Part shown: piece by piece, positions 38,241 through 54,357 of the stretch
How positions within the stretch are numbered: position 1 is the stretch's first letter
Layout: the number at the start of each line of letters is the position of its first letter
Source of the DNA: Thiocapsa sp.
GTDB taxonomy: Bacteria; Pseudomonadota; Gammaproteobacteria; Chromatiales; Chromatiaceae
Assembly (NCBI RefSeq): GCF_018399035.1
Contig: NZ_CP073760.1
Coordinates: 4,220,001-4,284,000 of the forward strand
Direction of reading: 5' to 3'
Length of the DNA stretch: 64,000 nucleotides
Translations under genes and position numbers: made by a program
The notes under the pieces: generated by a model
What the model was told of the DNA's origin: nothing
Seen by the model: the letters and a program-made list of their open reading frames with translations, nothing else
Databases searched by the model: none

Positions 38241-38681
38241 CCGTGCTGCTCGAACGCTATCGCCCCGCGAGCAATCGCCCTACGCAGCTTAACGCCTCGA
38301 TGGTTGTGTTCACGGCCGTTGGCTCGGGCCGCGCCGAAGGCGACGAGAGCACTTCCAGGTATGGTTTTATTTTCGAAACCGCGCGATACTTAACCACAAA
38401 GCTAGGCCACGTATCTCCACATTCCAAGCTCGAAGTCCACATGGCCTATGCGGCGATTTGTGCATTTTCGCGCCGTTCGGCCTCAAGAATATGCTTGAAT
38501 GTCATCCACTGATGGCGCCAATCTAGGGCGTCTGTCTTCGGGCTCGGCGGGCTGCTCGGTATCGGCTAGTCGCGTGCTAATAGGGTCGCGTTTTTCTCGA
38601 GGCCGTAGCATCGCGACGTAAAGAGGATGGCAAGCCGTTTCGCCGAGGCTCAACATTTAATAAATGATCGGAGTATTCCGT

Positions 38682-38927
38682 ATGTTCGATGACATTGAAG
38701 AAACACTGCGAGATATCATTTCAAAAAGTCTCAAGGTCGACAAGGATTTAATCCAGAAAGACTCGTCTCTCGAGGACTGGGGCGGCGACTCGCTCGACTT
38801 CATCGAAACACTTTTCGCGATCGAAACACAGTTCGATATCGGCTTGCCGGATGTCGGGGGAGGTCGGGATCTCAATTTCGAGAAATTGGCCAACATGGTC
38901 CGGGAGCAGGTTGCCAAGCGCTCATGA
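38682..38927 (+). CDS. Acyl carrier protein
   Basis: 81 residues, acidic four-helix carrier. Ser37 in DWGGDSLDFIETLFAIE is the 4'-phosphopantetheine site (D-S-L). ATG 38682 is preceded by GGAG at 38670; an earlier ATG at 38664 is less well placed. Its stop overlaps the next ketosynthase start as ATGA. A dedicated ACP at the head of this locus implies acyl-chain assembly separate from housekeeping fatty-acid synthesis. Confidence 0.92.
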   Translation: MFDDIEETLRDIISKSLKVDKDLIQKDSSLEDWGGDSLDFIETLFAIETQFDIGLPDVGGGRDLNFEKLANMVREQVAKRS

Positions 38928-40153
38928 GAAGTCACCGTAGGGTTGTCGTCACGGGCATCGGCATGATTACCCCATTCGGGGTCGGTCGCACTGTTTTTTG
39001 GTCGCAAGCGTTGGCAGGGAGCTCAGCCACTCGATTGATTCAAGGGTTCGATCCTGAGCCATATCGTTCGCAAGTCGTGGGAGAATGCTTGGATTTCGAT
39101 CCATCAAGTGTCGTGGATTCGTCCGAAGTTCGCCGCTACGACCGATTCTCCCTATTCGCCATGGCTGCGGCCGACGAGGCTCTCGCGGACAGCTGCCTTA
39201 GTCCGTCTTCGGAGCGGACCGGTGTCGTGATGGGCACGGGGATGGGAGGGGCCGCAACCACTGATCTCCAGTACGAAGCGATGCGTACGAAGGGGCGCCG
39301 ATTCGTGAATCCGCTCACCGTACCTATGGCGATGCCGAACGCCGCTGCGGGACACATCGGCCTTCGCAACCGTTTGCGAGGCCCGTCCCTGACGATATCG
39401 ACCGCCTGTGCGTCGGGTGCCAATGCGGTCGGCGAAGGACTGCGAATCATTGCGCACGGATACGCCGATACGATGTTGGTCGGCGGGGTCGAGGCTGCAA
39501 TTAACCCCGGTTTCTATACGGTCTGGGACGCATTGCGTGTGATGGCGAAGAGAAACGAAGATCCGGCAGGTGCGTCGCGTCCCTTTAGTCTTGATCGCAC
39601 GGGCTTCGTGATGGCAGAGGGCGCAGCGGTTCTGGTCTTGGAGGAACGCGAGCAAGCCATCGGGCGGGGCGCTTCGATATACGCGGAAATCACCGGATAC
39701 GGCGTCACGAACGATGCCTATCATGTCACTCGGCCCTCCATGGAAGGGGAAGCGAACGCGATTCGGTTGGCGATGAGCGATGCAGGGGTCGTCCCGGCCG
39801 ACGTCGATTACATCAATGCGCATGGGACAGCAACTGCAGCCAACGACGTCTCTGAAACCAATGCGATCAAGGCAATCTTCGGCGAGCATGCGGAGAAGAT
39901 TCCGATCTCGTCCACGAAGTCGATGATCGGGCATAGTATCGGCGCTGCCGGTGCAATAGAGTTCGCAGCGACCTGCATGACGATTCGCGAACAAATTATC
40001 CTTCCTACCATCAATCTCGAGACGCCTGACCCGGACTGCAACCTGGATTACGTCCCCAACCGATCGAGATCGGCAGAGATCGAAGTCGCGATCTCCAACT
40101 CGTTCGGGTTCGGGGGTAATAATGCAATCCTCGTCGCTCGCAAACACCGGTAA
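38924..40153 (+). CDS. FabF-like beta-ketoacyl-ACP synthase
   Basis: 409 residues, complete KAS I/II fold. The active-site triad is Cys162 (STACASGANAVGEG), His300 (NAHGTATAANDVSE) and His337 (KSMIGHSIGAAG), with Lys332. It elongates an acyl chain by decarboxylative Claisen condensation on an ACP. Translationally coupled to the ACP gene. The housekeeping fabF normally sits in the fabH-fabD-fabG-acpP cluster, so this copy is likely specialised. Confidence 0.92.
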   Translation: MRSHRRVVVTGIGMITPFGVGRTVFWSQALAGSSATRLIQGFDPEPYRSQVVGECLDFDPSSVVDSSEVRRYDRFSLFAMAAADEALADSCLSPSSERTGVVMGTGMGGAATTDLQYEAMRTKGRRFVNPLTVPMAMPNAAAGHIGLRNRLRGPSLTISTACASGANAVGEGLRIIAHGYADTMLVGGVEAAINPGFYTVWDALRVMAKRNEDPAGASRPFSLDRTGFVMAEGAAVLVLEEREQAIGRGASIYAEITGYGVTNDAYHVTRPSMEGEANAIRLAMSDAGVVPADVDYINAHGTATAANDVSETNAIKAIFGEHAEKIPISSTKSMIGHSIGAAGAIEFAATCMTIREQIILPTINLETPDPDCNLDYVPNRSRSAEIEVAISNSFGFGGNNAILVARKHR

Positions 40154-40329
40154 CCTGCAGATACGATAGCGGTCGTTCTCAGTAATCCTCTTATACGACG
40201 CGAACGCCGGAATTGGCCCGGAGCCTCGCTCCGCTCTGATTGAAGGTTGTTCTCGTTTGAATCCGGTTCGGCGGGACTTTAGTTTGCTTAATGCAACTGC
40301 TGGCGAAGCAATTCTTTTTCGAGGCTTTT

Positions 40330-41478
40330 ATGAAAGACGTTTATATCACACGCACCAGCTCATACCTGCCGAACGCTCCGGTCGGCAATAGTGATATCGA
40401 GTCGGTCATCGGCCGATTGAAAAAGCAGCCGGAACGCGTGAAGCAGTTTGTTTTGGCAAACAACGGGATTCAGACTCGATACTACGCCATCGACCCGAAA
40501 ACCGGGAGAAAGACGCACTCCAATGCTCAGCTTGCGAGCGAATCAGTTACTGCCCTCCTGCGGGATGCCGGTCTAAAACTGGAGCAGATAGAAGGCTTGG
40601 CGTGCGGGACATCTTCGGCTGATCAACTGATCCCCTCGCATGCCAATATGGTGGCCGGAGAGTTGGGGATGCCACCGGCCGAGATTGTCTCGACGGCAGG
40701 TGTTTGCGCATCCGGGATGTCTGCTTTCAAATACGCTTACATGGATGTCGCGCTGGGTCATGCGCGCAACTTCATCGTGACCGGGTCGGAATGTGCGTCG
40801 GCCTTCATGGAGGTCAAGCAATACGAACCATTGATCGATGCGCTTCACGCCGATCCCGACGCTGTGCCGATGGTTGCATTCGAGAAGGAGTTTCTACGTT
40901 GGATGCTGTCGGATGGCGCAGGCGCGGTTCTGTTGGAGCCCGCGCCGCGGGTCGGCGCGGTCAATTTCAAGGTCGAGTCTGTTGCCTTGAGGTCGTGGGC
41001 GGGAAGCCTTCCCGTGTGCATGTATGCCGGGATGAATAAAAGCAAAGATGGTGATCTGACTTTCTGGTTCGATGAAGATGACCGAAGCCAAATCCCCCAG
41101 AAAGGCTACCTCCTCTTGCAGCAGGACGCCCGGGTGCTTGAGGCTCACATGGTGGATGTTGCTGTACAGGGGCTGACTTATCTCATCGAAGAGCAGGGTT
41201 TCGATGTCGATCGCGTCGACTGGTTTTTGCCGCATTTGTCCTCCATGTATTTCAAGGATGTCTTGATGGAGCAGTTCGAAGCGAACGGCGTGAAGCTTCC
41301 GGAGAAAAAGTGGTTTACAAACCTCGCGGACAAGGGAAACACCGGATCGGCATCGATCTTCATCATGCTCGATGAACTTGCGAGATCGGGGCGCCTCCAG
41401 AATGGCGAAACGGTTTTCTGTGCCGTGCCGGAGAGCGCTCGTTTTACCATGGCCGGGATGCTGTTGACCGTTTGTTGA
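40330..41478 (+). CDS. StlD/DarB-type beta-ketosynthase (KAS III superfamily)
   Basis: 382 residues. The start VYITRTSSYLPNAPVGNSDIE and the stretch VLANNGIQTRYYAIDPKTG with THSNAQLASESV are the pattern I associate with StlD/DarB ketosynthases. The thiolase-fold triad is Cys126 (TAGVCASGM), His302 (FLPHLSS) and Asn337 (GNTGSAS). DarB and StlD join two acyl units to a 1,3-cyclohexanedione that becomes a dialkylresorcinol or stilbene. ATG 40330 follows CGAGG; ATG 40291 is in frame. No DarA-type aromatase is visible nearby, so the ring may stay reduced or be oxidised by another enzyme. Confidence 0.82.
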   Translation: MKDVYITRTSSYLPNAPVGNSDIESVIGRLKKQPERVKQFVLANNGIQTRYYAIDPKTGRKTHSNAQLASESVTALLRDAGLKLEQIEGLACGTSSADQLIPSHANMVAGELGMPPAEIVSTAGVCASGMSAFKYAYMDVALGHARNFIVTGSECASAFMEVKQYEPLIDALHADPDAVPMVAFEKEFLRWMLSDGAGAVLLEPAPRVGAVNFKVESVALRSWAGSLPVCMYAGMNKSKDGDLTFWFDEDDRSQIPQKGYLLLQQDARVLEAHMVDVAVQGLTYLIEEQGFDVDRVDWFLPHLSSMYFKDVLMEQFEANGVKLPEKKWFTNLADKGNTGSASIFIMLDELARSGRLQNGETVFCAVPESARFTMAGMLLTVC

Positions 41479-41479
41479 C

Positions 41480-42004
41480 ATGCGTGGTGCGGTGAATTCG
41501 TCGTTACTTGATGGATGCGATCCCTCTTCGGATAACAGTATGCCCATCCAAAAACCGGCGATAACGAATGCATGTCCAAATTCGGTCAGGATTGCGGAAA
41601 TCCTGTCCACATTGCCACATCGATTTCCGTTCCTTCTGGTCGATCGAGTGGTGGACTATCAAGCCGGTCGTGCGCTTGAGGCGCGCAAGCTTGTGACAGC
41701 AAACGAACACTATATGGCAAGCGAATCGCAATTCTTTCCGTCTGTTTTGATTGTCGAGGCGATGGCCCAAGCCACAGGGATCCTCGCCGTACTCAGCGCC
41801 GAGGAGGTTTCTGCCGACTCGCGGTTTTTTTTAATCGGTGTTGATCGGACATCGTTTTCGGGGCATGTCGAGGCCGGGGATCAGTTGGCGATTCAAGTGC
41901 GCGTTTTGCGGATCACCCAAGGAGTGGGAAAATTTCAAGCGGAAGCGAGTGTCGGTGGTGTCCAGGTGGCGATTGCGGAGCTGATGTGTGCGGCTCAAAT
42001 CTAG
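41480..42004 (+). CDS. FabZ/FabA-like 3-hydroxyacyl-ACP dehydratase (hotdog fold)
   Basis: 174 residues from ATG 41480 (154 from ATG 41540, which gives a more typical length). LPHRFPFLLVDRVVDY holds the catalytic His47, and FPSVLIVEAMAQATG holds Glu93, matching FabZ's F-P-G-x-x-I-x-E-A-M-A-Q. The loop between them is shorter than in FabZ. It would remove water from a 3-hydroxyacyl-ACP. No ketoreductase gene is adjacent, so reduction presumably uses FabG or one of the downstream SDRs. It follows the ketosynthase immediately. Confidence 0.86.
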   Translation: MRGAVNSSLLDGCDPSSDNSMPIQKPAITNACPNSVRIAEILSTLPHRFPFLLVDRVVDYQAGRALEARKLVTANEHYMASESQFFPSVLIVEAMAQATGILAVLSAEEVSADSRFFLIGVDRTSFSGHVEAGDQLAIQVRVLRITQGVGKFQAEASVGGVQVAIAELMCAAQI

Positions 42005-42386: not shown

Positions 42387-43667
42387 ATGAAAGACGGTTC
42401 GGATGCGGTTGCGCTGGGAATAAGCGAAGCCCTGACGCGTGCGGAGAGGAAAGCGCGTAGCGCGCGTACGCGGCGAAATGTCACGTTCCTGCTCATCTTA
42501 GTGTGCCTCGGTACCGCCGGTTACTTCGTTTTCAAAGGCAGCGAAGGAGATACGCTCTATACTACGGCGAAGGCAATAAAAGGGGATCTGAGTCTTACCG
42601 TGACAGCGACCGGAAGACTTCAGCCCGTCAACCAGGTCGATGTCGGAACCGAGGTCTCGGGTACAATTCAGTCGGTCGAGGTCGATTTCAATGATCGTGT
42701 CGTTGCGGGGCAAATTCTGGTTAAGTTGGATACCGAGCAATTGGAGGCAGGGTTTCGGCAGTCAAAAGCCTCTTTGAGCTTGGCGGAAGCTGGGGTTATG
42801 GAGGCAAATGCCACGCTGACCGAAACCGGCAACCGCCTGAAACGAATCAGAGATCTCATCGGGAGGGACCTCTCGACAGAAGAAGAGTTGGATCGCGGGG
42901 TCGCGGCGTTTGCGAGGGCTGAAGCCGGGCTGGCCGTAGCCCAAGCAAAGGTTGAGCAGGCGCAGGCCCAACTTGACGCCGATCGGCGTGCTCTCGAGAA
43001 GGCGATCATTCGTTCGCCGATCGACGGTATTGTCCTGGAGCGGCGGGTGGAGTCCGGACAGACCGTGGCAGCAGCACTGCAAACACCAATCCTGCTGGTC
43101 CTGGCAGAAGATTTGCGGGAGATGGTTCTACACGTCGACATCGACGAGGCAGACGTCGGGCAGGTCCTTGCGGGACAGCAGGCAACCTTCAGCGTCGACG
43201 CATATCCCGACAAGGAGTTTCCGGCCGACATTCGGCAGGTTCGATTCTCCCCAAAGAGCTTGGACGGCGTCGTGACTTACGAGACGCTGTTGAACGTGGA
43301 TAACGAGGAGCTCTTGTTGATGCCCGGGATGACGGCGACGGCGGAGATCGGCGTTGCACGTTTCCGCGATGTCTTGCTCGTTCCGAACGCCGCACTTCGC
43401 TTCAGTCCGCGGGAAGACGTCAGTAAAGCTGTCTCGAAGCCTTCGCTGTTCAATCGGTTTGCCGGCCAAGCGCGAGAGAAGCCGCCTTCTCCCATCCGGG
43501 ACGATGCCGCCAGCGATAGTCGCCTGGTTTGGGTGTTGGAGTCAGGAGTCCCCGAAGCGGTTCCCGTTCAAGTCGGGGTGTCGGATGGTGTCGTCACCCA
43601 AATTCTCGACGGGAATATCAAGCCGGGGGACGATTTGGTGGTCAGCATGTCGACTTCGGTGCTCTGA
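42387..43667 (+). CDS. MacA-like periplasmic adaptor (membrane fusion protein)
   Basis: 426 residues. One N-terminal membrane helix (NVTFLLILVCLGTAGYFVF), then a lipoyl/barrel-sandwich half (VTATGRLQPVNQVDVGTEVSGTI), a long helical hairpin (about 125-205), the second lipoyl half (IRSPIDGIVLERRVESGQTV) and beta-barrel/MP domains. It bridges an inner-membrane MacB-type ABC transporter to an outer-membrane TolC channel. The two transporter genes follow directly. No tolC gene is in the window. Confidence 0.9.
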   Translation: MKDGSDAVALGISEALTRAERKARSARTRRNVTFLLILVCLGTAGYFVFKGSEGDTLYTTAKAIKGDLSLTVTATGRLQPVNQVDVGTEVSGTIQSVEVDFNDRVVAGQILVKLDTEQLEAGFRQSKASLSLAEAGVMEANATLTETGNRLKRIRDLIGRDLSTEEELDRGVAAFARAEAGLAVAQAKVEQAQAQLDADRRALEKAIIRSPIDGIVLERRVESGQTVAAALQTPILLVLAEDLREMVLHVDIDEADVGQVLAGQQATFSVDAYPDKEFPADIRQVRFSPKSLDGVVTYETLLNVDNEELLLMPGMTATAEIGVARFRDVLLVPNAALRFSPREDVSKAVSKPSLFNRFAGQAREKPPSPIRDDAASDSRLVWVLESGVPEAVPVQVGVSDGVVTQILDGNIKPGDDLVVSMSTSVL

Positions 43668-43670
43668 GAC

Positions 43671-44396
43671 GTGGCCTCGGTTGCGAGCGCGGTGGATATG
43701 GTCCCGGTCATTGAGCTGCGTCAGGTCACACGGATTTACGGGCGAGGCGAGGCGACCGTGCAGGCGCTTCGGGGTGTCGACTTGACGATCCGAGACGGCG
43801 AGTTTGTTGCCGTCATGGGGCCGAGCGGTTCGGGAAAGTCGACAGCGATGAATATCCTGGGGTGCTTGGATTCGCCGTCCTCCGGTGCGTACCTGTTTCG
43901 CGGGACCGAAGTCGGCAATTTGTCGCGCGACCAGCGGGCCATTCTCCGACGCGAGTATCTCGGCTTCGTATTCCAGGGATACAACCTTCTAAGCCGAACT
44001 TCCGCGATCGAGAATGTCGAGCTGCCTTTGATCTATCGACGTGTGCGTGTGCACGAACGTCGACGGCGAGCGCGCGAGGCATTGAGGGCCGTCGGGCTGT
44101 TGAACTGGGAGCATCACACTCCCTCGGAGATGTCCGGCGGACAACAGCAACGCGTTGCGATTGCACGGGCCTTGGTGAGCGAGCCGCTCGTGCTGCTCGC
44201 CGATGAACCCACGGGTAATTTGGATTCGGCTCGAAGCCGCGAAATCATGGAGTTGCTGACAGAGCTGAACAAGGTTCGCGGTATCACAGTGGTCATGGTT
44301 ACTCATGAGCACGATATGGCGGAATATGCGACTCGCATTGTTGAGTTCTTCGACGGGCTCGTCGCGAAAGACTTCTCCAGCGAGGGTGCGACCTGA
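43671..44396 (+). CDS. MacB/LolD-type ABC transporter ATPase
   Basis: 241 residues. Walker A GPSGSGKST with Lys56, Q-loop in FVFQGYNLLSR, signature SGGQQQRVAIARAL, Walker B VLLADEPTGNLD, H-loop VTHEHD. GTG 43671 lies four bases after the macA stop; ATG 43698 is an alternative. Pairs with the separate permease gene that follows, so the MacB function is split over two genes. Confidence 0.93.
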   Translation: MASVASAVDMVPVIELRQVTRIYGRGEATVQALRGVDLTIRDGEFVAVMGPSGSGKSTAMNILGCLDSPSSGAYLFRGTEVGNLSRDQRAILRREYLGFVFQGYNLLSRTSAIENVELPLIYRRVRVHERRRRAREALRAVGLLNWEHHTPSEMSGGQQQRVAIARALVSEPLVLLADEPTGNLDSARSREIMELLTELNKVRGITVVMVTHEHDMAEYATRIVEFFDGLVAKDFSSEGAT

Positions 44397-45601
44397 TGCT
44401 CTGGAGCAGCTTCGTGCTCGCCGGGAGGGCTGTTCGCCGCAATGTGCTGCGTTCGTTTCTCACCGTTCTCGGAATCGTGATCGGCGTTGCTGCCGTCATC
44501 ATTATGGTCATCCTTGGTGGAGGCGCTACCCTCGAGGTGCAGCGTCAGATCGAAAGCCTAGGAAGTAATCTCTTGATCTTACGGCCGGGGCAGCGCGTTG
44601 GTCCGGGTGTCCTGTCCGACGCGAGATCCTTTAATCTGGACGACGCGACAACTCTGCGCAACGAAATCCCTGGCTTGGATGCGGTTGCCCCGGCCGCATC
44701 GTTGCCGATGACGGCGGTGGTCGGTAATCGGAAGCGAGCGACCAACGTCACCGGCAGCGATAATGCGTATTTTACGGTGCGGAACTGGACACTGGTTTCG
44801 GGTCGCTCCTTCACCGAAACCGAGCTTCGTGCGGGTAAGGCGGTGTGCGTGATCGGTGCGACCGTTCACCGCGAATTGTTCGGTCAGGAGGATCCAATCG
44901 GATCGCGCATCCGCTTGAGAAGGGCCTCATGCGACGTCATCGGCGTGCTTGAGGCCAAGGGGCAAAGCAGCGTTGGGCTTGATCAGGACGACCTCATTCT
45001 TATCCCGCTCAAAACACTTCAGCGGCGCTTCACGGGAAATCAAAACGTCGGTCTAATCTACGCCTCCGTGCGTGCCGGAGATTCGATCGATCTCGCAAAG
45101 GCCGATATCGACCGACTCATGAAGGAGCGCCGGCTGATCTCCCCAGGTGATCAGTCCGATTTCATGGTCATGGATATGCGCGAGATCTCCGGACTTCTGA
45201 CAACGACGACCAAGATACTGACCGCCCTATTGGGTGCGGTTGCATCGGTCAGCCTGTTGGTCGGCGGTATCGGTATCATGAATATTATGCTCGTGTCTGT
45301 AACCGAGCGCACTCGGGAGATCGGCATTCGGTTGGCGATCGGGGCTCAGGAGGACGAGGTGATGCTGCAATTCCTCGTCGAAGCCGTCGTGCTCTCGACA
45401 CTCGGTGGATTGATCGGCATTGTCTTGGCCATTGGCGTCTCTGTTTGGCTGGCCGCTCTGCTGAACCTGCCTTTTGTATTCAACGTCGGAGTCGTTGTCT
45501 TTGCCTTTCTATTTTCGGCGGCCGTCGGCATCGTGTTCGGCTATTTTCCGGCCCGACGTGCTGCACGCTTGGACCCGATCGAGGCATTGCGACACGAATA
45601 A
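44396..45601 (+). CDS. MacB-type ABC transporter permease (FtsX-like)
   Basis: 401 residues. One N-terminal membrane helix (FLTVLGIVIGVAAVIIMVILGGG), a large periplasmic MacB-PCD domain (about 50-275), then three helices in the FtsX domain (LLGAVASVSLLVGGIGIMNIMLVSV, LGGLIGIVLAIGVSVWL, VVVFAFLFSAAVGIVFGYFPA). The ATG overlaps the ATPase stop by one base. With MacA it forms a tripartite mechanotransmission pump that exports substrates from the periplasm, plausibly the product of the upstream acyl-assembly genes. Confidence 0.93.
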   Translation: MLWSSFVLAGRAVRRNVLRSFLTVLGIVIGVAAVIIMVILGGGATLEVQRQIESLGSNLLILRPGQRVGPGVLSDARSFNLDDATTLRNEIPGLDAVAPAASLPMTAVVGNRKRATNVTGSDNAYFTVRNWTLVSGRSFTETELRAGKAVCVIGATVHRELFGQEDPIGSRIRLRRASCDVIGVLEAKGQSSVGLDQDDLILIPLKTLQRRFTGNQNVGLIYASVRAGDSIDLAKADIDRLMKERRLISPGDQSDFMVMDMREISGLLTTTTKILTALLGAVASVSLLVGGIGIMNIMLVSVTERTREIGIRLAIGAQEDEVMLQFLVEAVVLSTLGGLIGIVLAIGVSVWLAALLNLPFVFNVGVVVFAFLFSAAVGIVFGYFPARRAARLDPIEALRHE

Positions 45602-45667: not shown

Positions 45668-46441
45668 GTGCGAGCGATTGCGCTTCCGGAAGCGATGATG
45701 CAGCTGGGCCTTGGCCGCAAGCTCGTTATCTTGGTTTATCTTTCGGCCTATTTGTTGGTCTTGGGCGTTGGTTTGAGCGCGGCGCTATGGGTGTTCATGG
45801 CTTTGAAGCCCGACGATCCGGCGCGTATTCTTCCCTTATCCTGGGCGATCATCGCTGCGATAATCACCTTCTGCTACGGTTATTTAATCACCCTGTTGGT
45901 GCTGCGGCTCATCGTTCCGAAATCGCGGCCGGGAGTTTACCGATTGACCGGGACGGGACGTCCCCCGAAGCAAATCGTTGTTTTCGCGATGAACAACTTG
46001 CTGCTGCGTTTGCGTTTGACCGCGCCATTTGCAACATCCCTGTTTCCGGTCCTGATCAAGCTTCCGCCTCTATCTTGGCTCTATGGAAGGCTATTCGGCC
46101 CCGACAGTGCCGTGAGCTATATTTTGGACCCTTACCTGGTGACGATCGGCAAGAACACTCAGCTCGGCTTCGGAACACTCGTGCTTGCGCATTTCTACGA
46201 CAATCGCGGCCTGATGTTGAAACCGGTACGCATCGGCGATCGTGTCGTGATCGGCGCGGATTCAATCATCTGTCCGGGCGCCGAGATTGGTAACGGGTCC
46301 GTTCTGCAGATTCGTTCGGTCGTTTACCCCGATACGCTGATCCCTCCAAACGAATACTGGGGCGGTAATCCTGCTCAGAAAATTAAGGATTTGATGCCAC
46401 CTGTCAAACCGGAGAAGGATACCCGCACCAATCCTCGCTGA
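45668..46441 (+). CDS. Membrane-anchored left-handed beta-helix acyltransferase-like protein
   Basis: 257 residues. Two N-terminal membrane helices (LVILVYLSAYLLVLGVGLSAAL; LSWAIIAAIITFCYGYLITLLVL) precede a hexapeptide-repeat C-terminus: LVTIGKNTQLGFGT, VRIGDRVVIGADSIICPGAEIGNGSVL and NEYWGGNPAQKI. Relatives transfer acetyl or longer acyl groups from CoA or ACP. The GTG start at 45668 follows GAGGAG. It ends overlapping the convergent SDR gene by 38 bases. The acceptor is unknown; acylation of the locus product is a reasonable guess. Confidence 0.75.
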   Translation: MRAIALPEAMMQLGLGRKLVILVYLSAYLLVLGVGLSAALWVFMALKPDDPARILPLSWAIIAAIITFCYGYLITLLVLRLIVPKSRPGVYRLTGTGRPPKQIVVFAMNNLLLRLRLTAPFATSLFPVLIKLPPLSWLYGRLFGPDSAVSYILDPYLVTIGKNTQLGFGTLVLAHFYDNRGLMLKPVRIGDRVVIGADSIICPGAEIGNGSVLQIRSVVYPDTLIPPNEYWGGNPAQKIKDLMPPVKPEKDTRTNPR

Positions 46442-47285
46442 GACGCCAGAGTTCCGCCGCTAATTCGGCGTCTTGCGCAAGCGCCGAAGGGGCGCGCACC
46501 TTTTCGTCGGCGTAAAAGAGACCTGACTCCGTCGCGAGCTCGGGCGCGACGGCGCACCGGATTTGCGTGCGGGCACCTTGTTCGGATGTCGCCATCAATG
46601 GTTTGAGCAATTTCAGCACAGGTTGAAGCCGCGTCGGGATGACGCGCCAGATGTCGGTGGCAACCACACCGGGATGGGCCGCATACGTCGTGATGCCTGT
46701 TCCGGCCAGCCGATGTGCGAGCTCCTTCGTGAAAAGAATGTTGGCGAGCTTGGATACGGGGTAGGTTGGGTGCGGCCAGGTAAAGCTCGTTGGTGTCGCT
46801 CGGCTTGCGATCGACCAGTCAACGGACTTCAGTTTGCGGTGGCTGAGGCTGGTGACGTTGACGATACGGCCGGGAGCGGACTCCAGCATGCGGTGGAGTA
46901 ACCGCATCGTCAATAAAAAATGGCCGATATGGTTGGTTCCGAAGACCAGCTCGAAGCCGTCATTTGTCAGACCGCCACAGCCGGAGCGACCGGCGTTGTT
47001 GACGAGGACGTGCAGCGGCAGTCCTTTGGCCAGGAAGGCGTCCGCGCAGGCATGGACGGAGCCGAACGAAGCTAGATCGAGCGTGAGCCAGTCGACCCGC
47101 GGGTTGCCGGTGGCGTCTTTGATCTCGGCGACCGCGGACTCGGTGCGCTCTCGCGACCGACCGGCCAAGAAGACCTGCGCCCCCCGTCTCGCCAACTCGG
47201 TGGCTGTCGCCCGACCAAGCCCGGCGTTGCCACCGGTCACGATGCACACGCGGTCTCTGATGTCCCAATCGCGATACTGGATCAT
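46404..47285 (-). CDS. Short-chain dehydrogenase, retinol-dehydrogenase-like
   Basis: 293 residues from ATG 47285. Cofactor motif TGGNAGLGRAT, LDLAS, NNAG, catalytic Ser in VNVTSLSHRK and YPVSK (Tyr-x-x-x-Lys). The substrate pocket resembles the retinol/protochlorophyllide-reductase-like subgroup acting on hydrophobic substrates. Convergent with the acyltransferase-like gene and divergent from the permease pair. It could reduce or oxidise the lipid product of the locus. Confidence 0.88.
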   Translation of the reverse strand: MIQYRDWDIRDRVCIVTGGNAGLGRATATELARRGAQVFLAGRSRERTESAVAEIKDATGNPRVDWLTLDLASFGSVHACADAFLAKGLPLHVLVNNAGRSGCGGLTNDGFELVFGTNHIGHFLLTMRLLHRMLESAPGRIVNVTSLSHRKLKSVDWSIASRATPTSFTWPHPTYPVSKLANILFTKELAHRLAGTGITTYAAHPGVVATDIWRVIPTRLQPVLKLLKPLMATSEQGARTQIRCAVAPELATESGLFYADEKVRAPSALAQDAELAAELWRLSEDWCGYPSPV

Positions 47286-47348
47286 AAAATGCAATCTCGT
47301 CGTTCAAACAGGGGTCGTCCCGCAACCGATTTCGAATGAGGCAGACAG

Positions 47349-47777: not shown

Positions 47778-47778
47778 G

Positions 47779-48306
47779 ATGCGCCTGTTTCGACCGGTTG
47801 GATGGGTGCTCCTTTTAAGCGTGGTCGCGTTGTTGAGCATTGTTGCAATGTTCGATGCCGATCTTGTCGTCGAGACGGTCAAACAGGCTTGGGGACTCAC
47901 GATCAAGCTTGCGCCCCTCTTCGTCCTGGTCCTTCTGATGATGGCCCTGTCCGAAACCTTTCTGGATGCGCGTTGGATCGGCCGCTGGGTCGGGCACTCC
48001 TCGGGTCCGCGCGGCTGGTTGATCGCGCTGGCGGCAGGCACGCTCTCGGTGGGGCCGATGCATGTCTGGGTCGCGATCCTGCAGGATCTGCGGGCCAAGG
48101 GGATGCGCGAAGGCTTGATTGCGGCCTTCCTCTTTTCCCGCACGATACAACTCTTCTTCCTTCCCTTGATCATCGGCTATTTTGGCTGGACCTTCACCCT
48201 CATCTTGACCGGTCAAGTGGTGATCTTCGCCGTCGTCAATGGACTTATGATCGATTATCTGCTCGCGCGCAGTGCCTTACGCGCACCTCTAGACCCTAAG
48301 ACCTGA
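47779..48306 (+). CDS. Membrane protein, half of a split permease (C-terminal partner)
   Basis: 175 residues, about five helices: VLLLSVVALLSIVAMF, LAPLFVLVLLMMALSETFL, GWLIALAAGTLSVGPMHVWVAIL, GLIAAFLFSRTIQLFFLPLIIGYF and LILTGQVVIFAVVNGLMIDYLL. The glycine-rich G-T-L-S-V-G-P segment mirrors the V-V-G-S-L-A-M-G segment in the partner, suggesting an inverted-repeat transporter made of two chains. Confidence 0.6.
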   Translation: MRLFRPVGWVLLLSVVALLSIVAMFDADLVVETVKQAWGLTIKLAPLFVLVLLMMALSETFLDARWIGRWVGHSSGPRGWLIALAAGTLSVGPMHVWVAILQDLRAKGMREGLIAAFLFSRTIQLFFLPLIIGYFGWTFTLILTGQVVIFAVVNGLMIDYLLARSALRAPLDPKT

Positions 48307-48340: not shown

Positions 48341-49396
48341 TCAGTCTTGACGCAGCGGTGCGGGTGTCAGCCAAGCGTGTCCTTGCGGCGCGACACCGCC
48401 CACTAATCCATCGGCACCCTCGATGGGCAGCGTCTCGTATCCGATGCGATCCATTAGATCGCCGCAAATCGCAGCAATGCGCTCGCGATCCGCGTGGGAA
48501 AGCCGCGCGAAGCTCTCCGGATTCATGTTCCGGAGCGGCGCCGATTCCTTGCGGATATAACTAGCCTTGATGTCGCCGAGGACGGTCTCGTCCAAGGATG
48601 CGGGCGGAACATCGAGAAATGCCTCAAGGCGGCGCAAGAGCGGCGCCGGGTGCGCGGTCAGGTCTTCGTAACGCATCAGAACGACGTGCCGCAGGTGCTC
48701 AGCGTCGTCGAGTAGAATGCCGGTGCCATTTCGCCAATGTCGGGCGGTTTCGTCCACCGGGACCCCCAGCCGTCTCTGCGCGCCCTCGCACAAGGCGTAG
48801 GGATGACGCACGATCCCGATGAATCGGCTCGGTGAGAAATTTGCTTCGAGCCAGCGTGAGCGTAACGTGTTGGGAGGGCTTTTCTCCAACAGGATCCCGG
48901 GGCGATCGGGGTAATAGTGAGCCCAATCATAGCGTATCCTGCGCGCGGGGCTCGGATCGTCGGTCTCGATCCAGTGAAAGATGTCAGCTCGGCTCGACCA
49001 GGTGCGCGCGGCACCGAATGTCGGCGGGTGCGGAAGCGCCGGCGTCAACCATTGCCCTTCGTGCGGCAGCGAGCGAATCATCGGATGCTGTTCCAGCACG
49101 CGCGTGAGGAGTGTCGTACCGGAGTTGTTGAGGCCCAGGATAAACAGCCAGGGGCTGTGCCCGAGGTCGAGTCGTTGCTCGACCCACGCATCGAGCGCCA
49201 CAGGATCTTGAGTCATCCATCGCAACTCATGGCGCGGGCGCCCGATCAAACGGTAAAGGGCGTGTGCGACTGGAAACAGCCGCTGTATCTTGGCCAATCG
49301 CGGTGCGCGATTCGTCAAATAGGGCAGTGTCTCCCGGACCTTCGTCTCGAAAGTCGCCCCGTCCGCGTTTCGTATCGTCGGTGGTTTGTCTGTCAT
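48341..49396 (-). CDS. PAPS-dependent sulfotransferase 1
   Basis: 351 residues. The 5'-phosphosulfate loop is FILGLNNSGTTLLTRVLEQHP, and the 3'-phosphate site is FIGIVRHPYALCEGAQRR. MRYEDLTAHP and LLEKSPPNTLR are further family landmarks. It would transfer sulfate from PAPS to a hydroxyl of a lipid or sugar. ATG 49396. It is the last gene of a six-gene minus-strand operon; the previous gene ends 40 bases upstream. The position of sulfation cannot be deduced. Confidence 0.86.
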   Translation of the reverse strand: MTDKPPTIRNADGATFETKVRETLPYLTNRAPRLAKIQRLFPVAHALYRLIGRPRHELRWMTQDPVALDAWVEQRLDLGHSPWLFILGLNNSGTTLLTRVLEQHPMIRSLPHEGQWLTPALPHPPTFGAARTWSSRADIFHWIETDDPSPARRIRYDWAHYYPDRPGILLEKSPPNTLRSRWLEANFSPSRFIGIVRHPYALCEGAQRRLGVPVDETARHWRNGTGILLDDAEHLRHVVLMRYEDLTAHPAPLLRRLEAFLDVPPASLDETVLGDIKASYIRKESAPLRNMNPESFARLSHADRERIAAICGDLMDRIGYETLPIEGADGLVGGVAPQGHAWLTPAPLRQD

Positions 49397-49436
49397 GGTA
49401 TTCCGGGGCGGCCGCGCGTGATTCCCGCGCGACGCG

Positions 49437-50363
49437 TTACTGCGAAGGACCGTTGTCTTCGAGGAATCCCAGCGAGCTCGCCAGCGGCGAGTGGCTGAAA
49501 TCAAGCTCACGCATCGCCCGGTTGTTGTCGAAGGCGATCCTCACGGGCAACGGAATCGGGATGAGCCGCGTCCGGGCCTGGATGCGGTCGCGCCAGGCAC
49601 GGCAAAAGCGATCGATAGAGACATCCGCGGGTCCGGCAAGATTGTAGGTCCGGCCGCGCGAGTCGTCCCGGACGACAGCCTCCGCGATGGCCGAGGCGAC
49701 ATCCGGTGCAAAGGCCAGCGGAAAATAGAGTTTCGGCACCGGCATCACCGGTTTACTCATCACGAATCGCATGATCGGCGCCACGTTGGGGTCGTGGGGG
49801 CCATACATCGCCGAGGTTCTCAGAATGGTGAGATCGATCGCTTCGGCGGCAGCCGCCGCCCGGCAGCGACCCTCGGCGAGCGCCTTGGTGACCCGGTTTG
49901 CATTGCGTTGCGGGCGCCCGGTATCGCGGTAGACGGGATCCTCTTCTTGGACAACGCGCAATCCGAGTGCGTGACGTGCCGTCAGCTTATAGGCGCCGAT
50001 CGAGCTGACATAATGCAGACGGCGGACCCCGCTCCGGGACATGGCCTTCAGCACGTTTTCGGTTCCCAGCACATTGGGCCGATAGTTTTCGTCCCAGCCG
50101 TTTTTGAACGGGCTGGCCATAGCGGCGTTGTGGAGAACGACATCCGCGCCATCGAAGGCGCGCACCAAAGCATCCGGGTCGTCCAGGTCGGCAACCGCGC
50201 AGGTGACGGCGGCGGCCGATGGTCCGAGATCGGCTGCAACCTCTTGCCATTTGCCCGGGTTGCGAATGACCGCCCTGACCGCGCAACCGCGTTGGAGTAG
50301 GGCCGGTACCAGCAGCCGGCCAAGAAATCCGTTCGCGCCCGTGACGGCGACGAGTTGTGTCAT
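49437..50363 (-). CDS. NAD(P)-dependent epimerase/dehydratase-like protein (extended SDR, Tyr missing)
   Basis: 308 residues. TGANGFLGRLLVPAL is the cofactor motif; VVLHNAAMAS and YVSSIGAY follow. At the expected Y-x-x-x-K position the sequence reads NRVTKALAEGR, so Lys is kept but Tyr is Asn. The fold is that of 3-beta-HSD/NAD-epimerase proteins. It may be a reductase using another proton donor or a non-catalytic partner. The start overlaps the preceding SDR stop as ATGA. Confidence 0.82.
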   Translation of the reverse strand: MTQLVAVTGANGFLGRLLVPALLQRGCAVRAVIRNPGKWQEVAADLGPSAAAVTCAVADLDDPDALVRAFDGADVVLHNAAMASPFKNGWDENYRPNVLGTENVLKAMSRSGVRRLHYVSSIGAYKLTARHALGLRVVQEEDPVYRDTGRPQRNANRVTKALAEGRCRAAAAAEAIDLTILRTSAMYGPHDPNVAPIMRFVMSKPVMPVPKLYFPLAFAPDVASAIAEAVVRDDSRGRTYNLAGPADVSIDRFCRAWRDRIQARTRLIPIPLPVRIAFDNNRAMRELDFSHSPLASSLGFLEDNGPSQ

Positions 50364-51172
50364 GATCGGCCCAACCATTCGGAAGGAAGACGACGGTAGA
50401 TGTGCGCAACGGCCGCGTCGGTCCACTGCGGTGCCAGGCGCATCGAGAAGGCCATGGCCTTGGCGGCGGCGGTCAGATACAGGCGCCGCTTGCGTCTTCG
50501 CACGGCCTGCAATACGGCGCGTGCGGCGGGTTCCGGGTCGATTCCGAGAAACGCCAGCTTGCGCATCGCCGGAACCTGGCGTTGGACGTGATCGAACATC
50601 GGCGTGCGGATGATCCCCGGATAGACCAAGGTCACGCCGATCTTGCGCGGGAGCTCGTTCGCCAGCACCAGAGAGAGACTGGCCATCGCGGCTTTGCTTG
50701 CGGAATAGGCGGACGACAAGGGCAGATGGGCATAGGCGCAGAATGACGTGATGACCGCAATGTGCCCCGACCCGCGCTCTAGCATCCCGGGGAGTGCTGC
50801 CCGAATCGCCGAGTAGCCGGACCAGAGATTCACCTCCATCATCGCTCGCGATGCCTCCTCGTCACTGTCGAGCAGGTGCTCTTCTCGGACCGCGCCGGCA
50901 TTCAGGATCAGCAGATCAACGCCGTCCATCGCCGCCTCGGCCTGAGTGACGAGCGCGGCAGCAGCGCCTGGCTGCGCAAGATCACAATAGAAGGTGTGAA
51001 TGGTCGGCTCGTGAACCGCCAGCGTTGCGGCGAGTTGATCCAGAAGCTCGACCCGGCGCGCCGCCAATGCAAGCTCGGCGCCTTCGCGCGCCAAAACATG
51101 GACCAGCGCCTCGCCCAGTCCGGAGGAGGCTCCGGTGATCAGGACGCGCCGACCTTGCCAGGAGTCGCCCAT
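50360..51172 (-). CDS. Classical short-chain dehydrogenase
   Basis: 270 residues. TGASSGLGEALV, CDLAQPG, LNAGAVREE, catalytic Ser in VITSFCAYAHL and YSASK. The C-terminal VRRRKRRLYLTAAAKAMAFSMRLAP is basic and amphipathic, suggesting membrane association, as in SDRs acting on lipids (DltE/3-ketosphinganine-reductase-like). Begins 7 bases after the methyltransferase stop and overlaps the epimerase-like gene by 4 bases. Confidence 0.88.
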   Translation of the reverse strand: MGDSWQGRRVLITGASSGLGEALVHVLAREGAELALAARRVELLDQLAATLAVHEPTIHTFYCDLAQPGAAAALVTQAEAAMDGVDLLILNAGAVREEHLLDSDEEASRAMMEVNLWSGYSAIRAALPGMLERGSGHIAVITSFCAYAHLPLSSAYSASKAAMASLSLVLANELPRKIGVTLVYPGIIRTPMFDHVQRQVPAMRKLAFLGIDPEPAARAVLQAVRRRKRRLYLTAAAKAMAFSMRLAPQWTDAAVAHIYRRLPSEWLGRS

Positions 51173-51179
51173 CGACCTT

Positions 51180-52049
51180 TCAGTCTCGCCGCGTCGCCCG
51201 GAACATCGCGAGGACGCGATGAGGCTCGTAGTGCAGATCGAACAGGCCGACCTCGGCGAGCGCGTCGCGCAACCAGGCTTCCTCGAAGAAGGTCGCCTTT
51301 TTTCGGCGCATCAGCCGTCGTTGCAGCGGCGCCACCAGCGGATTCACGCAGACCGCCTCTCCGGTCAGGATGCCGCCCGGCTTCAGTACCCGGGCGATCT
51401 CCTTCCAGACAGGAACCAGATCCGGGAAGAGATGCAAGGCGCCGCAGCAGTTGATCTGGTCCATGCTGGCATCGCCGAACGGCAGCTCCATCATGTCGCC
51501 GCGCACCCAAACAAGGCGCTCGGGCCGGAATTCGCGCTTGGCATGGATCCGGGCGCCTTGCCGCAGCATGCTCAACGACAGATCGAGACCGTAGACTTCC
51601 GCCTCCGGATCACGCAAGCCGAGGGCGCGGGCATAATGGCCGGTCCCGCACGCCAAATCCAGGATTGCGCGCTTCGGCTCGGCGGTCTCGGAAAGATCGA
51701 GCAGGCGCTCCACCCAACGCCCGATGAACATGCCCGAGCCCACCAGCGTGTGCAACGGACGCCACACAGGCGTCTCGTACATCAGCGCGAACAGATTCGT
51801 CTCCATCACCTTTTGAGTGAAGGGGCGATCGCTTCGGTCCTCATCGGGGGGAAGGACATCGGCAATGGCTCTGTCGTGCCATGCAAGCCGATGGCCGCAG
51901 AACCTGCATGTCGGAGCTTGGTCCGCATCGGCATCGACTCGAACCGGCGGCAACGTGAATCCGCCCACCTGCTGGCAATTCGGACATCGCAAAGACGCCC
52001 CGCGACCTTGGTTCGGTGTCGACTGATTCACTGACGATGTCTCGCTCAA
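51180..52049 (-). CDS. SAM-dependent methyltransferase with N-terminal zinc-ribbon-like motif
   Basis: 289 residues. Two C-x-x-C pairs (CPNC near 22-25, CRFC near 48-51) suggest a zinc ribbon. The class I methyltransferase core has ILDLACGTGHYARAL, VYGLDLSLSML and LHLFPDLVPVWKEIARVLKPGG, close to UbiE/sterol-type methyltransferases. The start TTG at 52049 overlaps the glycosyltransferase stop as TTGA; GTG 52031 is an alternative. A substrate with a hydroxyl or ring carbon on the locus product is inferred. Confidence 0.85.
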   Translation of the reverse strand: MSETSSVNQSTPNQGRGASLRCPNCQQVGGFTLPPVRVDADADQAPTCRFCGHRLAWHDRAIADVLPPDEDRSDRPFTQKVMETNLFALMYETPVWRPLHTLVGSGMFIGRWVERLLDLSETAEPKRAILDLACGTGHYARALGLRDPEAEVYGLDLSLSMLRQGARIHAKREFRPERLVWVRGDMMELPFGDASMDQINCCGALHLFPDLVPVWKEIARVLKPGGILTGEAVCVNPLVAPLQRRLMRRKKATFFEEAWLRDALAEVGLFDLHYEPHRVLAMFRATRRD

Positions 52050-53332
52050 AGATGATGTGGTCGATCGGCGACAGGGTCCGCCCGATCTACGAATTGCTCT
52101 ACGATCTCGACTGCGCGCCGAGCTCCATCCTCCGAACGCATTCCCTGACCCAGCGTGGACGCCTTCCGGCGCATCTCCGAATCATTGAGCATGGTGTCGA
52201 TGGCTGCGGCCAGCTTATCGGCCGTCATGGCGCGATGCGGTATCGGCGCCGGGCCGATGCCCAACTGCCGAAGTCGAGATCCCCAGAAGAACTGTTCCGT
52301 CCAGAAGGGTATCACAGTGGTCGGGACACCGGCATGCAGCCCGACACCGGTCGTTCCGGCTCCGCCGTGATGGATCAAGGCCGCCATCTTGGGGAACAGC
52401 CAATCATGGGGTGCGGCGTCGATGGCATGGATGGTCTCGGGCAAGCTCGCCGGGTCGAGTCCGCCCCATCCTCGCGCCAGTACACCCCGCTGGCCGGTCT
52501 TCAGCAGGGCGGAAACGGCCATCTCGCCGTAGCGTGCCGCCTCGTCGCTGACCATGCTCCCGAATCCGATATAGACAGGAGGCGGACCGGCCGCGAGAAA
52601 ATTCGCAAGGTCCGGCGGCGGGGACCAGGCGGGATCGGTTTGGAGAAACCAATTCCCGGTAATGTGAATATTCTCGTGCCAGATCGGGTCGCGCGGAATG
52701 ACTAGCGGGCTGAACCCATAGAGCACCGGTGTTTTCGATGCGCGCATCCGCGCAAAGGGTCCTGCAAGCGCGAGCGGCGGTAAACCGAGGGTCTCCGTGC
52801 GCCAACGATTGATCGCCTTCCTGAAGGGTTGCCACAGCGCTTGCTCCGTGAGGGTGTAGCTGCTGCGGTTGAGGAATTTCGGCAGGTAGCGAAAGCCCGG
52901 CACATAGCCGCTGGGCGAGTCGATCGACGGCGTCAGCGGCGGACCCACGACAGAGTAGATGCAGGGGATCCCGAGCTTCTCCGCGAGATGCAGACTGCCG
53001 ATCGCCGCGGGCGATGTCAGGATGACATCCGCCCCCTCGCATGCCGCGAGCGAGCCTTCGAGGATGGCGGGCAGCTTGGAGCCCACCCAACGCGTGAAGC
53101 TCAAGGGCTGACGCATGGCGGACATCTTCAGATGCTCGCGGATCACGTCGTGCATCTCTCGGACATAATCGCCGGCTTGGCAAAAGGCCAGGCCCTGCTC
53201 CTTCACGAAGGTCTCGAAGTAGGCGTCGCAGGCCAAGCTCACCTCATGGCCAGCGTCGTGAAATCCCCTGGCAAGTGCCGCATAGGGTTGAACGTCGCCG
53301 CGTGAGCCGAAGGTCAAGACACTGATTTTCAT
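52046..53332 (-). CDS. UGT-type glycosyltransferase (GT1)
   Basis: 428 residues. The N-terminal MKISVLTFGSRGDVQPYAALARGF and the C-terminal nucleotide-sugar motif from PHDWLFPKMAALIHHGGAGTTG to GVPTTVIPFWTEQFFWG are those of sterol-glucosyltransferase/RhlB/antibiotic-type GT1 enzymes, which glycosylate small lipophilic acceptors. ATG 53332 overlaps the sulfotransferase 2 stop as ATGA. It strongly suggests that the locus makes a glycosylated small lipid. Confidence 0.9.
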   Translation of the reverse strand: MKISVLTFGSRGDVQPYAALARGFHDAGHEVSLACDAYFETFVKEQGLAFCQAGDYVREMHDVIREHLKMSAMRQPLSFTRWVGSKLPAILEGSLAACEGADVILTSPAAIGSLHLAEKLGIPCIYSVVGPPLTPSIDSPSGYVPGFRYLPKFLNRSSYTLTEQALWQPFRKAINRWRTETLGLPPLALAGPFARMRASKTPVLYGFSPLVIPRDPIWHENIHITGNWFLQTDPAWSPPPDLANFLAAGPPPVYIGFGSMVSDEAARYGEMAVSALLKTGQRGVLARGWGGLDPASLPETIHAIDAAPHDWLFPKMAALIHHGGAGTTGVGLHAGVPTTVIPFWTEQFFWGSRLRQLGIGPAPIPHRAMTADKLAAAIDTMLNDSEMRRKASTLGQGMRSEDGARRAVEIVEQFVDRADPVADRPHHL

Positions 53333-54357
53333 GATACGCTCGATCCGGATACGGGAATCTGCGACACGGCCGCGAGTTTCTTGAGCAAGGCTTCGCGGTT
53401 GCGTTCGATCCCGGCGAGCAACTGAACCTCGCGAGGATTGACGAAAGACGCATAGTCGCAGGCCGACTGCGCCTCGACCCCGATGAATGCCATGATGCGA
53501 TCCACGACCGCATTGGGGTCCGCGCACAGGTCCTCGTAGCGGACGCTGAGATGGCTTTCGGGCGGCAAGGCGCCGATCTGCCGGCGGAAGAAGGTTTCCA
53601 TGCGAATGTACTTACGCGTCAGAAAGCGACGCACGAGCTGGGTCCTGGAATCAGGATTCGTGGCCCAGCGCATGAAGGTCTTGATCAGCGGATTGCGTTG
53701 CGCCCGTGCGTAGCTGTCGAACAGGATGCCGATATAAGGATTGGGGTCGGCCGTCCAATTCTTCTGCAACGCCTTGATCTGAGAGTTGAGGACATTCAAA
53801 GGATCCCGGTGGATGAACACCAGTTTCGCAGTCGGCAGCAGCTCGTGAATCAGCGGGAAACGATCGTAGTCCCATGGGTTCTTGAGCAGCACGTTTCGAC
53901 GCGGATCGCCGATGTGTTGAATCTTCCGGCACAGCTCGCGCAGCAGCGGCACGTTCTTGCGCGTGACCGAGAAGGCCCCGCTTCTCTTGTACAGGATCAT
54001 GCCGTACTCCTCGGGCATGTCCGCGTCGATCTTCACGTTGTCGATCAGCCGCGTCTGCAGACGGTGCTCGGCGAGATAGTCGTTCAGCCTCTGCCTGTAG
54101 GTATCGGACTCGCCGCGCTGCGCGTGCGTCAGCAGACAGTCGTAGCACACGGCATGATAGGCCGTAATGATATTGAACGACTTGGTGCGCTCGAGCAGCT
54201 CGTAGAGCAGGGTCGTACCGGACCGATGATGGCCCAGGATGAAGACCGGCGCGCCTTCGAGCTCGCCGAGCCCGCTGTCGTCGGTGTCCAGGCATCGGCT
54301 GCGATCGCATAGCGAATCGGCCACGGATGGTTTCATCTCGGCAGGGATGCCCGGCAT
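53329..54357 (-). CDS. PAPS-dependent sulfotransferase 2
   Basis: 342 residues, first gene of the minus-strand operon. PAPS loop APVFILGHHRSGTTLLYELLER; 3'-phosphate site LVFIHRDPLNVLNSQIKAL; VRYEDLCADP near the C-terminus. ATG 54357 has a strong AAGGAG site. It is only distantly similar to sulfotransferase 1 in the same operon, so two different positions or two successive steps may be sulfated. Confidence 0.86.
   Translation of the reverse strand: MPGIPAEMKPSVADSLCDRSRCLDTDDSGLGELEGAPVFILGHHRSGTTLLYELLERTKSFNIITAYHAVCYDCLLTHAQRGESDTYRQRLNDYLAEHRLQTRLIDNVKIDADMPEEYGMILYKRSGAFSVTRKNVPLLRELCRKIQHIGDPRRNVLLKNPWDYDRFPLIHELLPTAKLVFIHRDPLNVLNSQIKALQKNWTADPNPYIGILFDSYARAQRNPLIKTFMRWATNPDSRTQLVRRFLTRKYIRMETFFRRQIGALPPESHLSVRYEDLCADPNAVVDRIMAFIGVEAQSACDYASFVNPREVQLLAGIERNREALLKKLAAVSQIPVSGSSVS

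Follow-up and report, generated by a model that had tools for sequence, protein, structure and literature searches.

Six genes occupy positions 48341-54357 on the minus strand of the window (the whole 64,000-nucleotide stretch of Thiocapsa sp. DNA that was analysed), in the order ST1, UGT, MT, SDRa, SDRb, ST2:

53329..54357, minus strand: ST1, a Sulfotransfer_3 family sulfotransferase of 342 aa (Pfam PF13469, 99.4 bits)
52046..53332, minus strand: UGT, a GT1-type glycosyltransferase of 428 aa (EryCIII-like_C and Glyco_transf_28 matches)
51180..52049, minus strand: MT, a SAM methyltransferase with a UbiE-like core (PF08241, Methyltransf_11; PF01209, Ubie)
50360..51172, minus strand: SDRa, a classical short-chain dehydrogenase (PF00106, 153 bits)
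49437..50363, minus strand: SDRb, an extended SDR (DFR/CCR/3beta-HSD-like; PF01370)
48341..49396, minus strand: ST2, a diverged Sulfotransfer_3 protein of 351 aa (PF13469, 64.0 bits)

The initial annotation had described six open reading frames linked by overlaps and a 7-base gap, and all of these are present in the order and on the strand it gave. The ST1/UGT and SDRa/SDRb junctions are ATGA overlaps, the UGT/MT junction is a TTGA overlap, MT and SDRa are separated by 7 bp, and SDRb and ST2 by 40 bp. GC content by codon position follows a coding-type pattern in all six frames (0.71-0.80 at position 3), and every frame has a curated Pfam match; these matches and the ATGA, TTGA and 7-bp junctions bear out both the proposed enzyme classes and the tight coupling of the genes. 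A scan for promoters and terminators returned counts no higher than in shuffled sequence.

Both sulfotransferases exceed the Sulfotransfer_3 gathering cut-off of 27, and each is predicted to move a sulfuryl group from PAPS onto a hydroxyl. The reference motifs used were R/K-SGTT for the 5'-phosphosulfate loop and R-x-P-x6-S for the 3'-phosphate. In an alignment with other sulfotransferases of the same genome, ST1 has the canonical versions (HHRSGTTLL and HRDPLNVLNS), whereas ST2, aligned to the CurM sulfotransferase, reads NNSGTTLL and RHPYALCEG, with Asn replacing Arg and Gly replacing Ser. By its sequence, ST2 is a diverged sulfotransferase without the usual PAPS-contact Arg and Ser, so the earlier designation of two PAPS sulfotransferases holds for ST1 but is not safe for ST2. 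An APS kinase for PAPS supply is encoded in the genome. No ortholog of ST1 was found in any of 55 relatives (best match 30%), and single-sequence AlphaFold models had pLDDT values of 34 (ST1) and 36 (ST2).

The closest solved structures to UGT are sterol 3-beta-glucosyltransferase (5xvm, 5gl5) and then glycopeptide glycosyltransferases (GtfB), with residues 2-415 aligning to 5xvm/5gl5 at an E value of about 4e-64, a full-length similarity. Judged by this resemblance, UGT is an enzyme of the sterol 3-beta-glucosyltransferase/GtfB type, unlike polysaccharide-polymerising enzymes, with an acceptor that is a prediction only. Its best bacterial relatives found (43%) are in a Pleurocapsa MAG, where a divergently transcribed sulfotransferase gene lies beside the glycosyltransferase gene. 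MT has a Cys4 Zn-ribbon-like segment at its N-terminus; its start was read as TTG, and another start, such as a downstream GTG, may be used instead. No full-length MT relative was found in 57 family, 369 class and 398 phylum genomes. The two dehydrogenases are of different SDR types: SDRa has intact TGASSGLG and YSASK motifs, and SDRb, aligned to cinnamoyl-CoA reductases, reads NRVTK, with Asn at the catalytic Tyr position of Tyr-x-x-x-Lys.

The neighbouring ketosynthase half is oriented convergently with the operon, with one SDR gene and two predicted permease genes between the two. Its features, with that SDR, are as follows:

38664..38927, plus strand: acyl carrier protein, a probable upstream supplier (PF00550)
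38924..40153, plus strand: FabF-type ketosynthase (TIGR03150, over cut-off)
40291..41478, plus strand: DarB/StlD-family ketosynthase (NF005293, 476 bits, cut-off 450)
41480..42004, plus strand: FabZ-like 3-hydroxyacyl-ACP dehydratase (NF000582, over cut-off)
42387..43667, plus strand: HlyD-type membrane fusion protein of a MacAB exporter (PF16576; 60% to the G074 cluster discussed below)
43671..44396, plus strand: MacB-type ABC ATPase (PF00005; 74% to the G074 cluster)
44396..45601, plus strand: MacB-type permease (PF12704/PF02687; 71% to the G074 cluster)
45668..46441, plus strand: hexapeptide-repeat acyltransferase (PF00132)
46404..47294, minus strand: third SDR, retinol dehydrogenase-like, of uncertain membership in the pathway (PF00106)

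Against the narrower NF053539 (DarB) profile the DarB/StlD-family protein scored 429 bits, under the cut-off of 550, and it lies on a long branch at 40-48% identity to canonical DarBs. Its catalytic residues (Cys139, His315, Glu381 and Asn344/350) are invariant across an alignment with 21 relatives. No DarA gene lies beside it, whereas in every comparison locus with a contig that spans the flank the two genes are within 1-2 kb of each other. A DarA gene (50% to a canonical DarA) is instead found elsewhere in this genome, at a distance of 195 kb (4,063,833-4,064,768), with a third Sulfotransfer_3 gene 1.9 kb from it. The GC content of this DarA gene (0.578) is close to that of the ketosynthase half (57.5%) and differs from that of the host (about 0.645); the operon has 63%. 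A common acquisition of DarA and DarB gained no support, their trees being incongruent and their distances to the same 18 genomes uncorrelated (rho 0.24, p 0.33).

We tentatively read 38.7-54.4 kb as a gene cluster that makes a phenolic lipid bearing sulfate and sugar, with the six-gene operon as its tailoring arm, and give this reading slightly less than an even chance. It is plausible that both halves serve one sulfated phenolic glycolipid, and the product would most likely be a dialkylresorcinol or cyclohexanedione lipid that is glycosylated, methylated, sulfated and exported. Extension and dehydration of an acyl chain would fall to the acyl carrier protein, FabF-type ketosynthase and FabZ; from two acyl units DarB would form a 1,3-cyclohexanedione by condensation, and the distant DarA would aromatise this to a 2,5-dialkylresorcinol. 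UGT could then place a sugar on a ring hydroxyl, MT could carry out O-methylation and SDRa could reduce or oxidise a keto group; the part played by SDRb, which lacks the catalytic Tyr, would be non-standard or one of binding. Sulfate would be placed on hydroxyls of the phenol or the sugar by ST1, and by ST2 if that protein is active, with PAPS made through the APS kinase of this genome. The hexapeptide enzyme may acylate the product, and HlyD-MacAB may export it. That the operon acts on what DarB makes is inferred, as are the sequence of steps and all substrates; the gene families and their order, the conserved DarB residues, the distant DarA and the APS kinase are observed. The small glycosylated, methylated and sulfated lipid of the initial annotation fits the small-molecule type of the UGT relatives and the presence of APS kinase, its substrates being part of that same inference.

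Conservation of 38.7-54.4 kb as one block, the check put forward earlier, had to be rejected: no other sampled genome carries both halves together, and the six-gene set is likewise in no other sampled genome. The operon has no DNA match in 10 congeners, and the DarB loci of 20 other gammaproteobacteria hold no orthologs of the six genes, with one SDR-superfamily match only. Plasmid and viral origins were also considered and set aside, as tblastn and megablast searches of plasmids gave distant family matches or none and no relative was found among viral contigs.

Parts of the locus do recur elsewhere. The hexapeptide acyltransferase at 45.7 kb is encoded in only 3 of 210 family genomes, and in all three a sulfotransferase gene lies within about 2.5 kb of it. 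A locus in one of these three, family member G074 (C5:11.4-34.6 kb), resembles the window in bringing together HlyD-MacAB, a FabF ketosynthase, an ACP, a KSIII, a hexapeptide acyltransferase, an SDR and two sulfotransferases, and also encodes a PPTase-like protein. It differs in that its head group would be made via DpgA rather than the canonical DarB, with a DpgA over its curated cut-off and two enoyl-CoA hydratases forming a predicted resorcinol-type head-group route, and in having no UGT or MT ortholog. Its sulfotransferases are only distantly related, those at the compared loci being 20-30% identical to ST1/ST2. In genome G015 a GT1-type glycosyltransferase gene adjoins that of the hexapeptide acyltransferase. 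MacAB has less value as a marker of the cluster, since HlyD-ABC-MacB genes also occur in five congeners with no ketosynthase or sulfotransferase. In one of the five, they lie next to genes for a hydrogenase and an arsenite methyltransferase-like protein.

These comparisons bear in both directions on the proposal that the ketosynthase locus supplies the aglycone: the related locus in G074 and the position of DarA beside another sulfotransferase speak for it indirectly, and the lack of a conserved unit, the 20 DarB loci without the six genes and the difference in GC speak against it. It is possible, if on the improbable side, that the operon works as a separate module, glycosylating, methylating and sulfating some other small lipophilic molecule (a hopanoid, a sterol-like or carotenoid-type compound, or an imported xenobiotic) and that the ketosynthase locus is merely adjacent. 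This would agree with linkage conserved in no genome, with an operon GC and orientation unlike those of the ketosynthase half, and with the closeness of UGT to sterol 3-beta-glucosyltransferases and antibiotic glycosyltransferases (170 bits, under the cut-off, for the rifamycin-inactivating Rgt). However, ketosynthase, acyltransferase and MacAB recur near sulfotransferases in G074, a GT1-type glycosyltransferase, acyltransferase and sulfotransferase recur together in G015, and two sulfotransferases, a methyltransferase and two SDRs exceed the needs of detoxification.

We consider it improbable that the operon is part of the surface-glycan region beginning at about 58.9 kb, with the sulfotransferases acting on polysaccharide or LPS. 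That region encodes GT2s, a polysaccharide pyruvyl transferase, a sulfatase and further sulfotransferase-like proteins, and likewise has no congener DNA matches beyond tiny fragments; but UGT is of small-molecule type and outside the polysaccharide glycosyltransferase families, the operon has no flippase, polymerase or sugar-nucleotide gene, it lies on the opposite strand at a GC of 0.63 against 0.60, and the acceptors suggested by the UbiE-like MT and the SDRs are lipids or quinone-like molecules. Very improbable is a set of recently assembled or decaying genes, unique to one genome and with no coherent product, as the Tyr to Asn change in SDRb, the altered ST2 motifs and the failure to find an orthologous operon in the genomes searched might suggest, since six intact frames, translationally coupled and with a strong GC signal by codon position, argue against general decay.

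The preferred reading, synthesis of a phenolic lipid with sulfate and sugar groups, has precedents for its parts in the sulfated adipostatins and the bartolosides. In the adp cluster of Streptomyces davaonensis the PAPS-dependent AdpST sulfates alkylresorcinols, a resorcinolic lipid again being paired with a PAPS-dependent sulfotransferase; adp, however, has a type III PKS, its own PAPS cassette and no UGT, methyltransferase or SDRs (PMC12135136), whereas the window has a DarB-type ketosynthase, two sulfotransferases, UGT, MT and SDRs, with PAPS genes elsewhere in the genome. Bartolosides, from the cyanobacterial brt cluster, are glycosylated dialkylresorcinols of DarA/DarB type; they are chlorinated, with a halogenase of CylC type, and BrtB esterifies them. 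The brt genes for DarA and DarB sit together, and sulfotransferases are not reported in the sections cited here (PMC7081238, PMC8406957). Neither a CylC-type dimetal-carboxylate halogenase nor BrtB was found among the window proteins examined. Canonical dialkylresorcinol/aryl-polyene dar clusters (e.g. Azoarcus arcuflavin, PMC3949708) share DarB, an ACP, a further ketosynthase and an ABC transporter with the window, but have DarA adjacent rather than in trans and no sulfotransferase, UGT or methyltransferase operon. As the initial annotation had maintained, no described pathway with the six-gene set was found in the open-licence literature.

A broader and rather doubtful extension is that purple phototrophs of the family may make sulfated, glycosylated resorcinol lipids as an undescribed class, with DarA/DarB building the head here and DpgABD building it in G074, and with a shared toolkit of sulfotransferase, acyltransferase and MacAB retained. 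Very few pathways to sulfated phenolic lipids are known in bacteria, and glycosylated dialkylresorcinols are mainly cyanobacterial. The rare acyltransferase that recurs beside sulfotransferases in distant family members offers a handle for genome mining, and the locus gives defined genes for testing. If the reading is true, a locus with a DarB-type ketosynthase, UGT, methyltransferase, two sulfotransferases and an exporter would bring this chemistry to anoxygenic phototrophs.

The six genes at 48341-54357, which the initial annotation had read as an operon with ATGA/TTGA overlaps and a 7-bp gap, were confirmed as such, as the ORFs and their junctions, GC by codon position and Pfam matches all agree. 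GC of a coding type by codon position was found in all six ORFs, each of which also gave a Pfam match above the curated cut-off.

53329-54357, minus strand, ST1, Sulfotransfer_3 sulfotransferase
52046-53332, minus strand, UGT, sterol 3-beta-glucosyltransferase/GtfB-like
51180-52049, minus strand, MT, methyltransferase with a Cys4 segment and a UbiE-like domain
50360-51172, minus strand, SDRa, classical SDR
49437-50363, minus strand, SDRb, aligns with cinnamoyl-CoA reductases
48341-49396, minus strand, ST2, diverged Sulfotransfer_3 protein

With starts read from the sequence and chosen for minimal overlap, ST1/UGT and SDRa/SDRb are joined by ATGA and UGT/MT by TTGA; gaps of 7 bp and 40 bp separate MT from SDRa and SDRb from ST2, respectively. 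Between the operon and the ketosynthase half of the region, 47349-48306 holds two short overlapping membrane-protein ORFs with 27% mutual likeness, the second a weak ArsP_1 permease match. On the other side of the operon, 55769-57757 encodes a probable secreted protein of 662 aa with no Pfam match.

ST1 carries both motifs for the sulfate donor PAPS, and sequence search retrieved no solved-structure relative for it. The nearest solved relative of ST2 is the CurM sulfotransferase (E 1e-4), against which its loop Arg is replaced by Asn and its 3'-phosphate Ser by Gly. UGT aligns end to end with structures of the sterol 3-beta-glucosyltransferase ATG26 type, and then with the glycopeptide GTs GtfB and GtfD. 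In MT the Cys4 segment (CPNC and CRFC, read directly) lies N-terminal to the UbiE-like domain; SDRa has a YSASK motif, and in SDRb the catalytic Tyr is replaced by Asn in the cinnamoyl-CoA reductase alignment. Judged from these sequences, the mix of enzymes is a predicted small-molecule tailoring set.

The host genome carries the window at 4,220,001-4,284,000 of a single 5.73-Mb contig and encodes both photosynthetic reaction-centre subunits; the host is therefore a purple phototroph, and we infer that it belongs to the Chromatiaceae. It also encodes an APS kinase and has 14 Sulfotransfer_3 matches. A sulfatase gene (PF00884, 203 bits; CAPTR formylglycine-type motif) lies on the plus strand 8 kb from the operon, at 62079-64000 and extending past the window end. 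Immediately beyond the window's downstream end (67902-76371, window numbering) are two more ORFs: one of 578 aa, in which a sulfotransferase-like domain at the N terminus is fused to an unlike C-terminal portion, and one of 2198 aa, which begins like a sulfotransferase and contains long coiled-coil repeats that are nearly identical.

No ST1 ortholog was found in 10 congeners and 45 further relatives (best match 30%), nor any full-length MT relative in 57 family, 369 class and 398 phylum genomes, sets which overlap. DNA comparison of 44.5-64 kb with congeners matched only macB, besides one 46-bp fragment. The nearest UGT relatives found (33-43% identity) come from groups as far apart as cyanobacteria, Chloroflexota, Firmicutes and proteobacteria; on a Pleurocapsa MAG contig, one adjoins a divergently oriented Sulfotransfer_3 gene, with a P450 also present.

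The ketosynthase half encodes an ACP, a FabF-type KS, a StlD/DarB-family ketosynthase, FabZ, HlyD, an ABC ATPase, MacB and a hexapeptide acyltransferase. Its DarB scores above the StlD/DarB subfamily cut-off, and the alignment shows its catalytic Cys, His and Glu/Asn to be conserved. In a set of 369 gammaproteobacterial genomes, a DarB (E below 1e-80) is encoded by 20 besides the host; DarA adjoins it in every one of those loci whose contig covers the flank, and none of the 20 loci has orthologs of the six operon genes. DarA was not found within the window. It lies 195 kb from DarB in the host genome (4,063,833-4,064,768; 50% identity to canonical DarA), and its neighbors there are a transposase of the IS66 type and a third Sulfotransfer_3 gene. 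This segment (4,063,303-4,069,041), with its transposase and sulfotransferase gene, looks inserted, because 306-bp direct repeats, 97% identical, bracket it; the repeats contain the start of a photolyase gene. The GC of DarA (0.578) is close to that of the ketosynthase half (0.575), unlike the host (~0.645) or the operon (0.63), and the trees of DarA and DarB gave no support for a common origin. The low-GC segment is directly preceded by a restriction gene of the GmrSD type at 29031-30665 and, at 33982-35223, a DDE transposase.

The claim that the two halves (38.7-54.4 kb) form one conserved unit failed, as they are conserved together in no genome sampled. This speaks for the main alternative, in which the operon modifies some different lipophilic molecule and simply adjoins the ketosynthase half, as do the difference in GC between the two and their convergent orientation. 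The best evidence that acyl-chain/ketosynthase genes and sulfotransferases may instead serve one product comes from comparing gene neighborhoods. The hexapeptide acyltransferase (E below 1e-15) occurs in only 3 of 210 family genomes: the window's own, G074 and G015. In G074 it lies within a 23-kb locus (C5:11378-34567) with HlyD-ABC-MacB at 60-74% identity to the window counterparts, two FabF-type KS, an ACP, a distant DarB-like KSIII, a DpgA (3,5-dihydroxyphenylacetyl-CoA synthase) above the curated cut-off, two Sulfotransfer_3 genes, an SDR, an acyl-CoA ligase and two enoyl-CoA hydratases. G074 belongs to a different genus of the family, and this locus appears to be a separate, undescribed cluster. 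In G015 the acyltransferase sits between a GT1-type glycosyltransferase and a Sulfotransfer_3 gene 2.4 kb away. The sulfotransferases of the compared loci share only 20-30% identity, and HlyD-ABC-MacB also occurs in five congeners lacking any KS or sulfotransferase, which calls for caution in linking the ketosynthase half to sulfotransferases. A polysaccharide target for the operon is less likely because of the UGT type.

The reading as a glycosylated, methylated and sulfated lipid with a ketosynthase-supplied aglycone is partly supported: the tailoring classes and the G074 and G015 loci speak for it, and the lack of joint conservation of the halves against it. No described pathway with this gene combination was found in the open-licence literature searched, in line with the initial annotation. 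The simplest product using all parts would have a core of dialkylresorcinol or cyclohexanedione that is glycosylated, methylated and sulfated, a reading we put forward tentatively and at slightly below an even chance. Single steps of such a pathway have precedents: AdpST sulfates both alkylresorcinol hydroxyls (PMC12135136), and DarA/DarB homologs take part in making the bartolosides, which are dialkylresorcinols bearing sugars (PMC7081238, PMC8406957).
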